Assembly (NCBI GenBank): GCA_028289465.1 | Contig: JANQPM010000119.1 | Coordinates: 1 to 64,000 of the forward strand | Direction of reading: 5' to 3' | Length of the DNA: 64,000 bases | Source: Lysobacterales bacterium | GTDB taxonomy: Bacteria > Pseudomonadota > Gammaproteobacteria > Xanthomonadales > SZUA-36 | Shown: piece after piece, positions 3-56,691 of the stretch | Numbering within the stretch: position 1 is the stretch's first letter | Layout: each line of letters starts with the position of its first letter | Made by a program: the position numbers and the translations under genes | Notes under the pieces: model-generated | Seen by the model: only the letters and a program-made list of their open reading frames with translations | Databases searched by the model: none | What the model was told of the DNA's origin: nothing

Positions 3-92
3 GGGGGCGTGCGGTTGCGGTTTTCGTCCGCACGCGCTTAACCGTTCCGTCAGAAGGCTTCTTCGCTATCGCGAAACCGCCATCTGACTCCA
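3..92. repeat. Structured intergenic repeat, copy 1
   Basis: Two hairpins lie side by side. The first (7-35) pairs GCGTGCGG with CCGCACGC. The second (49-88) pairs GTCAGA with TCTGAC, then GGC with GCC, then TTCGC with GCGAA around a TATC loop, with a TTC/ACC internal loop. The first hairpin and its flanks recur almost exactly at 46037-46071, and the second architecture recurs three times between 45978 and 46253. I cannot name the family. It resembles REP-type elements in size and location. Confidence 0.7.
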
Positions 93-141
93 CCTGCACT
101 ACGAAGGACGTGGGTGCGGGACTCCTGATTTATTCGCATAT

Positions 142-44146: not shown

Positions 44147-45555
44147 ACCTCAGGCCTTACGACCCCGAACGATACTCCCGCATGCTGTTCTATGCCTATC
44201 TGGCCGTGCTGTTCTGCCTGCCGATTCCGCTGGGCAGCAACCGGCCGCTGTGGTGGGGTGCGGCCACCGCAATCTTCAGTGTACTGACCGCGCTATGGAT
44301 CTTCGCATGGCTTAACGGCAAAGTCCGCGTTCCCGGTGCATTGCGTCGCGGCCGATGGGTGATCGGTCTGCTGCTCGCCTTTAACGTCTGGCTGGCGCTG
44401 GCGCTGCTGCCCGTCTGGCGCCTTGGTGAATCGTTTTCGTCCGGGCTGGCGCATCCGGCCTATTTGTCGGTGCCGGCCTATCTGTCGGTGGATACCGCCG
44501 CGACGCAGGATGCGCTGATTCGTTCGGTCGGCCTGTTGCTGATTGTGGTACTGACGCTGTGCCTGGTTCGGTCGACACGGCGCCTGAAACTGCTACTTGC
44601 TACCGTGACGATAGCCGGCCTGCTGCAGGCGGTCTACGGCAGTCTAATGGTATTGAACGGGGCCGATTTCGGCTTTGCCGACGTTAAGCAGTTTGGCAAG
44701 GGAATGGCGACCGGAACCTATATCAACCGCAATCATTATGCCAACCTGCTGGTGTTGTCCCTCAGTGCCGGTATCGGTCTTCTGATCGGTCGCATACAAC
44801 TGCAGCGGTATCCTAACTGGCGCGTCAGAATCCGGCACTGGTTGCGGGCGGCATTGGGGAGGAAGGCCCGGCTCAGAATCTACCTGGCGATCCTGGTCAT
44901 TGCGCTGGTGCTGACCCGGTCCAGAATGGGCAATGCTTCGTTTTTTCTGGCGCTGCTGATTACCGGTCTGTTGGCGCTGTACCATATGCGCCGCATGAAC
45001 CGGCCGCTGCTGATTCTGATCGTCAGCCTGGTGGTGGTCGATATCTTTTTGGTCGGGACCTGGTTCGGCGTCGACCGGGTTGTGGACCGGCTGCAGAAAA
45101 CCGTGGTCGTTAGCGAGCAGCAATGGGTGCTACGCGACCGCGTCCGTCTGGAAGCGAATCGGGAGAGCCTGCAAATGATTCATCAGGCACCGGTCGCCGG
45201 CACGGGCGGGGGCAGTTTTTATACGGTTTTTCCGGGCTTCAGAAGCGTGGATCAGGAATTTTTCGACCACGCGCACAATGACTACCTGCAATGGACGGTT
45301 GAGTATGGCATCGTCGGTTTGCTGCTGATTGCGGCGTGGTTGTTTCTCGTGTTCAGAAAAGCGTTGCGGCAGTTGAATCATCCGGCACGGCAGTGGCGAT
45401 TTGCAGCGGCTTTCGCCACGGTGATGGCCATCACTGCCGGCATGATTCACGCCGCTGTGGACTTTAATCTGCAGATTTTCGCCAATGCCGCTTATCTGGT
45501 GGTATTGTGCAGCCTTCCTTATTGTCTGCCACCTGGACGGCCACGCAGCCGTTAA
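44143..45555 (+). CDS. O-antigen polymerase/ligase family protein
   Basis: 470 aa from ATG 44143, overlapping the previous stop (ATGA). About 11-12 hydrophobic helices, with a large periplasmic loop that contains the Wzy_C signature: VAGTGGGSFYTVFPGF and FFDHAHNDYLQWTVEYGIVGLLL (in pieces). In a cluster with Wzx, Wza and Wzc homologues and without lipid A genes it is likely the repeat-unit polymerase. An 18-base tandem duplication (44455-44490) repeats the residues PAYLSV in the loop between helices. Confidence 0.85.
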   Translation: MNLRPYDPERYSRMLFYAYLAVLFCLPIPLGSNRPLWWGAATAIFSVLTALWIFAWLNGKVRVPGALRRGRWVIGLLLAFNVWLALALLPVWRLGESFSSGLAHPAYLSVPAYLSVDTAATQDALIRSVGLLLIVVLTLCLVRSTRRLKLLLATVTIAGLLQAVYGSLMVLNGADFGFADVKQFGKGMATGTYINRNHYANLLVLSLSAGIGLLIGRIQLQRYPNWRVRIRHWLRAALGRKARLRIYLAILVIALVLTRSRMGNASFFLALLITGLLALYHMRRMNRPLLILIVSLVVVDIFLVGTWFGVDRVVDRLQKTVVVSEQQWVLRDRVRLEANRESLQMIHQAPVAGTGGGSFYTVFPGFRSVDQEFFDHAHNDYLQWTVEYGIVGLLLIAAWLFLVFRKALRQLNHPARQWRFAAAFATVMAITAGMIHAAVDFNLQIFANAAYLVVLCSLPYCLPPGRPRSR

Positions 45556-45718: not shown

Positions 45719-45977
45719 CGCGCCAAGTTTATCTGTTATGCGGTAAATGTGCGCGTATGGTTACCGTATGACCAAGACCTTTTTTTAGGAGGTCTCATTT
45801 GGCTTGGCCCGGAAACACGGAAGCTTCCCCTGTGGGTAACTAAGAGTGCCCGGCTTCTACGCCGGACATACCGGTATTAGGAGCCGCAGGCGACCCGCCG
45901 AGCCCGGTTGGGTGAGCGGGCAACGCGAGCGGCACCAGAGGGGCCGCGTTAGTTGCACCCTGTAGCCTCGACCGGAC

Positions 45978-46012
45978 AGTCTGGCGGTTTTCCGAAGGAA
46001 AGAAGCCAGACT
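45978..46012 (-). repeat. Structured intergenic repeat, inverted copy
   Basis: On the minus strand it reads AGTCTGGC, TTC, TTTCC, loop TTC, GGAAA, ACC, GCCAGACT: the same GGC-TTC-stem-loop-stem-ACC-GCC scheme as copy 1, with a different but fully paired inner stem (TTTCC/GGAAA) and outer stem. Confidence 0.65.
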
Positions 46013-46036
46013 GGGAAGTCCAAAATGGATAACTTT

Positions 46037-46120
46037 GGGGCGTGCGGTTGCGGTTTTCGTCCGCACGCGCTTGACGGCTGCGCCAGAAGGCTTCTTCACT
46101 ATCGTGAAACCGCAGCGCAG
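46037..46120 (+). repeat. Structured intergenic repeat, copy 2
   Basis: The first hairpin (46040-46068) is identical to that at 7-35, including loop. The second (46078-46120) keeps GGCTTC and AAACCGC, but the inner stem is TTCAC/GTGAA instead of TTCGC/GCGAA and the outer stem is CTGCGC/GCGCAG instead of GTCAGA/TCTGAC. Changes on one side are matched on the other. Confidence 0.7.
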
Positions 46121-46185
46121 GTGACTTGGTCGGCGGTCTTGCCAGCGGCAAAGAAGCCGGCCAGCAGGCACCGTTAAGCACGTCT

Positions 46186-46265
46186 GGTTTCGCCTGCACG
46201 CGCTTAATGGTTCCGTCAGAAGGCTTCTTCGCTTAGCGAAACCGCCATCTGACTCCACCTACGCT
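46186..46265 (+). repeat. Structured intergenic repeat, copy 3
   Basis: The hairpin at 46215-46253 repeats GTCAGA/TCTGAC, GGC/GCC and TTCGC/GCGAA with a three-base loop (TTA). The following TGACTCCACCT and ACGAA strings match copy 1 (86-105). It lies about 60 bases before the barrel gene. Confidence 0.7.
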
Positions 46266-46321
46266 ACGAAAGAAGCGGGCGCGAGACTTCATTATATAAT
46301 TAGCCCTTTTATCGGAGCCGT

Positions 46322-47641
46322 TTGTTGAAATTGAAACTCAACCAATTGAGTTTAGCTTGTGTATTGGCACTAACCGGCAATGTGTCACTATCCGTTTCAG
46401 CAAAACAAGAGCCGGTCGATATGGTTCCCTCGCGGAACGCCGGCAGCGCTTCCGGTGTGCAAGAAAATCAGGCCCCGATAGATCCATGGGCTCCGCCGGC
46501 CGCGAAAGACGAGGACGAGGTTGGCGAGAAGGTCAAAAACCGCCATATTTCTTTGCTGGGCACCACTATCCTGCCAACCATCGGTATAGACTTCGGCTAC
46601 GACGACAATCTAACCCTGTCCAACAGCCAGCAGATTGATTCCACGTTTACTGTCATCTCACCCGGCCTGCGGGTTGAAATTCCAGGCAATCGCTCGTTCC
46701 TCGCCGTATCTTACGAGGGTGAATTAGGCGCATATCATGACAGCTCGCTTGATGATTTCGACGACCACAAGTTTCGTGCCGAGTACCGCTATGACCCGAC
46801 CGCCCGAACCGGTATCGACATGTATGCCGAATACCGGAAGGCGCATGATCAGCGGGGTACGGGAGCCCGTCAGGGTGATCAAGGTCTGATCGACCTTGAG
46901 CCGGACGAGTACGACGCTTTCGGCTTTGGCGGCCGCTGGGCATACGGTGCGGTCGGTGCGCAGGGCCGCATTGAGCTGGAAGCCGGAAAAGTCGACCTGG
47001 AATATCAGAACAATCGCGAATTTACCCGGTTTCGCGATCGTGAAGATCTGTTTTGGGGTGGAACGTTCTACTGGCGCATTGCACCGAAAACTTCGGCCCT
47101 GGTTCAATATCAATGGGCTGATATTGATTATGACAGCATCGGGCTGGACAGCGAAGAAACCCGTTATCTGGTCGGTGTGACCTGGGAAGCCACCGCGAAA
47201 ACCAGCGGGACCGTTAAATTCGGTCGGCTCGACAAGGACTTTGACGATCCGGCCCGCGAGGACTACAACGGCGCTACCTGGGAGGCCGAGATTAGCTGGA
47301 GCCCAAAAACCTACTCTGTATTTACGCTGGCCGCATCGCGGGAAACGGATGAAACCGACGGTTTCGGCGACTTTGTTCTGCGTGAGGACGTTACGCTGGC
47401 TTGGCGGCATAACTGGTCTGATCGTTTTCGCACCGTAGTTGATATCGGTATTGGCGATGATGACCATCGGTCCAACATTCGAAAGGATGATTTGTTTTTC
47501 TGGGGTTTGGCTGCGCGCTGGCAGTTTAACCGCTACTTCCAGCTCGGCGCGGGAGTCAAGTATTTCGAACGCGATTCCGTGCAGCAGGAGTTCGATTTTG
47601 ACAGGTATCTTTACCTGATCTCGCTGGAAGGTTCCTATTAG
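46322..47641 (+). CDS. Outer-membrane beta-barrel protein (BBP2-like)
   Basis: 439 aa, TTG start (46322 or 46325) behind GGAG. Signal peptide to about residue 27 (LACVLALTGNVSLSVSA), a short Pro-rich linker, then about 16 amphipathic strands, many ending with aromatic residues (IGIDFGYDDNLTLSN, FLAVSYEGELGAYHDS, SALVQYQWADIDYDS, FQLGAGVKYFERDS) and a final LISLEGSY. This is the outer membrane barrel family that accompanies Wza-like proteins in exopolysaccharide loci, probably part of the secretion pore. First gene of the export block. Confidence 0.83.
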   Translation: MLKLKLNQLSLACVLALTGNVSLSVSAKQEPVDMVPSRNAGSASGVQENQAPIDPWAPPAAKDEDEVGEKVKNRHISLLGTTILPTIGIDFGYDDNLTLSNSQQIDSTFTVISPGLRVEIPGNRSFLAVSYEGELGAYHDSSLDDFDDHKFRAEYRYDPTARTGIDMYAEYRKAHDQRGTGARQGDQGLIDLEPDEYDAFGFGGRWAYGAVGAQGRIELEAGKVDLEYQNNREFTRFRDREDLFWGGTFYWRIAPKTSALVQYQWADIDYDSIGLDSEETRYLVGVTWEATAKTSGTVKFGRLDKDFDDPAREDYNGATWEAEISWSPKTYSVFTLAASRETDETDGFGDFVLREDVTLAWRHNWSDRFRTVVDIGIGDDDHRSNIRKDDLFFWGLAARWQFNRYFQLGAGVKYFERDSVQQEFDFDRYLYLISLEGSY

Positions 47642-56621: not shown

Positions 56622-56691
56622 CTGTAGGAGCGCCTTTAGGCGCGAAACCGGCTCTTATCCAGGAATTTCGCGCCTAGAAGCGCTCCTACGG
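56622..56691. repeat. REP-type palindrome pair
   Basis: CTGTAGGAGCGCCTTTAGGC (56622-56641) and its inverted partner (TTTCGCGCCTAGAAGCGCTCCTAC, 56666-56689, written here only by its positions and ends) form a large imperfect hairpin. The 5' GTAG tetranucleotide is the mark of REP elements mobilised by RAYT transposases. It sits between two convergent genes and may also act as terminator. Confidence 0.8.

Follow-up and report, generated by a model that had tools for sequence, protein, structure and literature searches.

A REP-like family of self-nesting mobile hairpins in a Lysobacterales genome and its relatives

Palindromic repeats and the place of the new family among them

REP-like palindromes occur in many bacterial genomes, where their origin and spread are debated and where families without a linked transposase are unexplained. 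A modular layout is known from the BOX elements of Streptococcus pneumoniae, composed of boxA-(boxB)n-boxC with fixed ends and variable inner copies; as for insertion into palindromes, IS1397 is a gene-bearing insertion sequence that targets those of REPs. Regarding movement, TnpA_REP recognises one folded strand through its tag and stem irregularities and cleaves it at a C-containing dinucleotide (PMC8266576), and REPINs provide a second analogy for movement as a single strand (PMC3116915). Di Nocera 2013 reported 24 GTAG and 4 CGTC families, the CGTC ones without a transposase, and, for A. variabilis, T. roseum and H. neapolitanus, REP dimers enclosed in longer palindromes; the principle of a palindrome within a palindrome is therefore not new (PMC3733652).

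The locus considered here belongs to the window, the whole stretch of 64,000 nt that was analysed, and it contains two repeats, named GGAG-element and H. Like REP, BIME and REPIN sequences with their RAYT, these are short, palindromic, non-coding, intergenic and present in high copy, with a tag beside an irregular hairpin, inverted dimers and no target duplication; unlike them, the GGAG-element has the tag GGAG in place of GTAG or GTGG, no RAYT found beside it, and a length of up to 556 bp with nested modules, and some of its carriers are without a detectable RAYT. The resemblance to the CGTC REPs of Di Nocera 2013 consists in REP families without a dedicated transposase and in REPs held in palindromes; however, that work describes one REP family per palindrome type per species, whereas H occupies several unrelated palindrome families, and itself, in many genera. 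Compared with BOX in layout, H modules alternate in orientation and lie in a hairpin tip, whereas the inner BOX modules are in tandem. ISPpu9 also takes REP palindromes as insertion targets, but it bears genes, whereas H is 66 bp long and has none. The word GGAG is absent from the main texts of the REP literature searched for it, and one 66-bp unit found in many palindrome families and in itself, with a ladder of empty and filled sites, is undescribed in the searchable literature, most subscription papers excepted. The evidence set out below supports well a real family of self-nesting mobile hairpins that is REP-like.

The GGAG-element in the window and across genomes

The first-pass annotation had described a family of four hairpins with compensating changes, at 49-88, 45978-46012, 46078-46120 and 46215-46253, one of them inverted. 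The sequences match this description and the hairpins are real, but they are modules of one dispersed element and not four free-standing copies (Table 1). Two covariance models were searched against the window: R1, made from 36 hairpin units that include some of the own genome, which renders its matches in the window partly circular, marks the four places and a fifth one, 46123-46167 (+), with E 3e-6; R2, made from other genomes only and serving as an independent check, finds three units at full length (E 5e-7 to 4e-6) and the core of hairpin unit 1 (3e-4). More than one copy is inverted, given that three units are on the - strand and two on the + strand.

Table 1. Features of the two GGAG-elements in the window, with matches of the covariance models R1 and R2; earlier coordinates are in parentheses.
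Feature	Coordinates	Strand	Details
GGAG-element copy, 411 bp	45880-46290	+	5' end GGAGCCGCAGGCGACCCGCC; 3' end GCGGGCGCGAGACTTC (usual form in other copies GAGACTCCTT)
Hairpin unit 1 (45978-46012)	45974-46016	+	R1 E 1.5e-9; R2 core only, E 3e-4
5' arm of the GGAG-element's 3' hairpin, GCGGTTTTCGTCC	46050-46062	+	comparison with empty-tip copies
H unit in hairpin tip (46078-46120)	46080-46123	-	inner stem TTCAC/GTGAA; R1 E 2.3e-7
H unit, opposite orientation, core 46123-46167	46112-46185	+	inner stem (T)CTTGCC/GGCAAA; R1 E 3e-6, R2 E 7e-7
H unit, core 46213-46255 (46215-46253)	46196-46267	-	inner stem TTCGC/GCGAA; R1 E 2.4e-8, R2 E 5e-7
3' arm of the GGAG-element's 3' hairpin, CGAAAGAAGC	46267-46276	+	three H units between arms, insert 202 nt
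H unit (49-88) in second GGAG-element	30-102	-	R1 47-90 E 1.8e-9; R2 E 4e-6

The complete element is non-coding and lies between an O-antigen-ligase-like ORF that ends at 45555 and an outer-membrane-type ORF (46322-47641); against dinucleotide shuffles, its fold has a z of -4.5 as DNA, and of -5.9 and -6.4 as RNA. Hairpin unit 1 has the outer stem AGTCTGGC/GCCAGACT, the internal loop GGT/GAA and the inner stem TTTCC/GGAAA. The GCGGTTTTCGTCC-type 5' arm is followed directly by the 3' arm GGACGAAAGAAGC in 13 other copies (L022, L023, L129 and L137 among them). The adjacent hairpin GCGTGCGG/CCGCACGC noted before is present as well, but it is made by this 5' arm together with inserted modules. Positions 1-120 are the 3' part of another GGAG-element, severed by the contig start; many contigs of this genome begin or end inside such elements, so that the copy counts are probably low estimates, and the repeats of GGAG-element and H account for assembly breaks at many of their sites.

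In the own genome (2.95 Mb), a pattern for the GGAG-element 5' end matched at about 123 places and the reversed control pattern at none, and blastn with the window region gave at least 65 matches, many at contig ends; several genera of the same family have matches to the 5'-end pattern too. The copies share their ends and measure 41, 86, 113, 140, 197 and so on up to 556 bp, the minimal one being GGAGCCGCAGGCGACCCGCCGGAGCGGGCGCGAGACTCCTT; their boundaries are GGAG...CTCC/CTTC, aligned copies reading GGAG...CTCC, and the ends are unchanged in forms of 58 and 138 bp from relatives. Compensatory pairs are present in the 138/140-bp core too. Dozens of solitary copies of the 3' unit CCGCAGGCGGGAGCAGGGAAGCGAGACTCC differ in their 5' ends, as though they had been truncated there (L240-L254; G003, G004, G011, G014).

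The GGAG-element copies are intergenic and, with genes called by a simple ORF rule, the 3' end is at most 11 nt from the stop codon of a convergent right-hand gene in 17 of 38 cases. A C stands at -4 of GGAG in 29 of 44 own copies and in 25 of 31 from relatives, and no pair of flanks of the GGAG-element copies rose clearly above shuffles as a target-site duplication. In G014 the element immediately adjoins a gene's stop codon; at the corresponding junction, G004 from the same genus has only a short spacer without the element, and G011 carries an element in inverted orientation. The element is hence present and absent at one orthologous site, where the spacers are too diverged to offer an exact empty site, and it is mobile on the evolutionary time scale. 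As a separate observation, the 5' part of 58-bp elements reads as the C-terminus of a protein (L068 5404-5462 in G020; L044 in G004), with a stop codon that the element itself provides (GAAGDPLNPVG-stop in G020).

As for class membership, the repeat agrees with REP and REPIN sequences in being a short, dispersed, intergenic palindrome at high copy, with about 123 5' ends between genes. Nearly all copies, own ones and those of relatives alike, have GGAG as their tag, and not GTAG, GTGG or GYRG; the ends read GGAG...CTCC, without the tag of a CGTC REP; within the partial assemblies no cognate RAYT flanked by the same repeat was found; and the fixed-length target-site duplication of DDE-type MITEs is lacking. 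Integron attC sites (conserved GTTRRRY/RYYYAAC cores), suggested by the GTTAAGC of some own units, are rejected, as this core varies to GTCAAGC or GTTTAGC and is absent in relatives. Rfam, queried with the window and with 20 plus 7 loci, matched no element above the gathering cut-off, sX9, ar14 and CcsR1 being sub-threshold. The sX9 match (a Xanthomonas sRNA) reaches 24-31 bits, versus a cut-off of 44, beside hairpin repeats of G044 (L039 1639-1703, L045, L328), and a related palindromic repeat may be the ancestor of sX9.

The H unit: conserved pairing, strand bias and nesting

The hairpin core is GC-GG[T/C]-stem-loop-stem-GAA-GC, and own-genome loci yielded at least 99 different cores. Their inner stems vary (TTCGC/GCGAA, TTGCGC/GCGCAA, TTTGCC/GGCAAA, TTTCC/GGAAA, TTCAC/GTGAA and TTTCGTCC/GGACGAAA); the extraction demanded four inner pairs and left the outer stem free of selection, and this outer stem, though unselected, shows covariation at most of its positions outside the fixed GC. 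Aligning the surroundings of the units defines H, of about 66 nt, as N-GCAGGCAATG.AG-stem-TGCGGTTT-stem-loop-stem-AAGAAGCG-stem-GGAATGCCGT[C/A]GC-N'-CGT, or, in short form, AAGAAGC on the 3' side of the inner stem and a 3' end GGAATGCCGT.GC.CGT. Nearly all copies with recognisable ends are 66-68 nt long; the exceptions are L290 (65 nt) and the nested L298, where the script put the 5' end inside the unit.

The proposal that the paired changes reflect selection on the fold is supported, covariation being far above the shuffled and slid-partner controls. In alignment A2 (36 hairpin units), 87.3% of cells pair versus 64.1% after shuffling, and covariation is 0.542 versus 0.171, slid partners giving at most 0.115; in alignment A3 (34 H units from relatives) the corresponding values are 96.4% versus 79.8% and 0.459 versus 0.148, with the shuffle controls of both alignments leaving the kinship among units in place. 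Two-sided changes affect 14 of the 22 pairs of A3, and partners slid by 1-3 columns pair at most 49%; its two outermost helices, which lie outside the search model, are 100% and 94.8% paired, and all four Watson-Crick kinds occur at the pair N-N'. It should be noted that part of this conservation could be due to palindrome-correcting DNA processes rather than to function. On the strand with GGT/GAA, G.T mismatches outnumber A.C by 56:5 in A3 and 45:10 in A2, so that the constraint is on the fold of this one strand; the complementary strand would show A.C.

Such a bias, as tolerance of G.U over A.C, also suits a transcribed RNA, and one alternative takes the hairpins mainly as transcribed RNA under selection (a 3'-UTR stabiliser, an attenuator or terminator, or a family of sRNAs) with dispersal as an incidental matter; the position at gene ends, the very stable RNA folds and the weak below-threshold resemblance to sX9 point the same way. 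However, the units occur in both orientations, within one element and relative to genes, and about 100 copies per genome together with insertion into REPs fit mobile DNA, which leaves a principally RNA-based explanation quite improbable.

Regarding distribution, the R1 search gave 102 or more units for the own genome, and at least 17 of 61 genomes had units, two other families of the order included. Among 369 genomes sampled evenly across the class, R2 had matches in the own genome and four others only; H is sparse, yet not confined to its own order.

The hosts of H in other genomes are GTAG-type REPs, the GGAG-element, long inverted repeats (L292, L306, L307 and L330) and, in L298, a further H. 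For hosts whose palindrome is also known without an insert, H is placed immediately 3' of a small GC..GC hairpin, and its excision restores the host: a GTAG-1 REP, ATCGCGGCTAAAGC^CGCTCCTAC, in L310 (with small differences in L281 and L311); a GTAG REP, CGCCCGCAAGC^GGCCTCCTAC, in the remote genome G375 (L340), with an intact partner alongside; the GGAG 3' unit, GGGAAGC^GAGACTCC, in L319 and also in L301, L302, L304, L305, L312, L313 and others; and the GGAG core hairpin, GAGCAAAGC^GAGCGGTACC, in L303. The left flank of H ends in AG plus a single base, which is paired to a base of H; in hosts of the GGAG type, the base that precedes H is in many cases A or T, not C, so that a perfectly clean junction is found mainly where N=C. 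Of the GGAG-elements in the own genome, 13 have nothing in the tip of their 3' hairpin (TTTCGTCC-TGC-GGACGAAA on the - strand); in others the insert at this tip measures 70, 137 or about 202 nt, equal to one, two or three units of ~66 bp.

Movement and the enzyme behind it

The hairpins are probably modules of a non-autonomous, gene-less and self-nesting mobile DNA family of the REP/REPIN kind, moved in trans as folded single strands. At a first level, the GGAG-element is a REPIN-like palindrome whose ends are fixed and which enters intergenic sites, often right beside a stop codon; at a second level, H, an irregular hairpin of ~66 bp with conserved internal loops, would enter other hairpins at their tips, on the 3' side of a small GC..GC hairpin. 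Its targets would comprise the GGAG-element, GTAG-type REPs and H itself, and hairpins would then grow by stacking. Both repeats would travel as folded single-stranded DNA, handled in trans by a putative hairpin-recognising nuclease or transposase, whose chemistry may be HUH/Y1-like by analogy with REP and TnpA_REP. Single-strand transposition appears the likeliest route because no target duplication was found, the distance to a fixed base is constant (C at -4 of GGAG; AG. before H), and the mismatched internal loops of the stem are conserved. Searches of the own genome and its relatives found no mobilising enzyme, about 70 own-genome loci, in partial assemblies broken at these repeats, included no gene-bearing copy, such as an autonomous transposon sharing its terminal inverted repeats with a DDE-type MITE would be, and orphan half-sites of H led to no gene-bearing version.

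The strongest competitor is an ordinary REP/REPIN family moved by RAYT (TnpA_REP), with GGAG as a variant of GTAG and H as another REP-like hairpin of the same enzyme. It would account for the tag with an inverted hairpin, the intergenic position near gene ends, the absence of target duplication and the stem mismatches, all REP-like traits (PMC3733652, PMC8266576, PMC3116915). The Pfam Y1_Tnp search of the own genome gave no match; a RAYT-protein query retrieved two RAYT-like genes there, L122 (G000:C63) and L127 (G000:C22), both cut by contig ends, and Y1 proteins exist in G014 and G020. However, the own RAYT-like genes are flanked by GTGGATGTCC-type repeats and not by the GGAG-element, the RAYT of G014 is flanked by GTAGGAGCG REPs, the partial assemblies of the carriers G003, G016 and G026 have no detectable Y1, RAYT or TIRYT-type protein, and the tag is GGAG, not GTAG; overall, this explanation is unlikely. 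The missing RAYTs may have been lost after the spread, or their genes may be absent from the incomplete assemblies.

The linked transposase that the first-pass annotation proposed to look for was searched, and none tracks with the hairpin family. Loss of pairing in genome-wide copies, or a known REP or MITE family with a transposase that matches, had been named beforehand as grounds against the proposal; instead, the copies stay paired throughout the genome, and no such family matches.

Palindromes are prone to slippage and template-switching events, and tandem unit arrays (L007, L013) recall them, but palindromes that grew by such replication errors, owe their 'compensatory' changes to gene conversion from one arm to the other and lack dedicated mobility are a highly improbable source of an H that keeps a near-constant 66-68 nt and the same loop sequences across families, and that occurs in unrelated host palindromes and in distant Gammaproteobacteria. 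Within the preferred reading of a mobile family, insertion next to hairpins could alternatively occur by template switching at replication, without a transposase.

More tentatively, H might represent a distinct class of mobile DNA, a gene-less hairpin of 66 bp that transposes into the tips of folded, GC-ending hairpins of varied sequence. If so, genome palindromes would grow by insertion of hairpin on hairpin, through an enzyme that reads single-strand structure and that, if found, would recognise DNA by the shape of a hairpin. The clear ends, the empty and filled sites, the countable insertion ladder and the strong covariation make insertion into hairpins testable.

Other repeats accompany the family. 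The REP units at 56622 had been set aside as no explanation of the hairpins, and they are indeed a separate family, RAYT-linked in two relatives: window 56622-56690 contains GTAGGAGCGCCTTTAGGCGCGAA and its inverse, which are GTAG-1-type REPs, and this type flanks a RAYT gene in G014 (L069) and G005 (L074). After the own RAYT-like genes L122 and L127, repeated GTGGGTGTCCTAT / GTGGATGTCCTATA motifs form a third repeat family. Finally, plasmids and phages yielded no DNA similar to the elements, and one viral contig (L220, IMG/VR UViG_3300017791_000178, 2698-2718) has an exact match to the 5'-end pattern of the GGAG-element.
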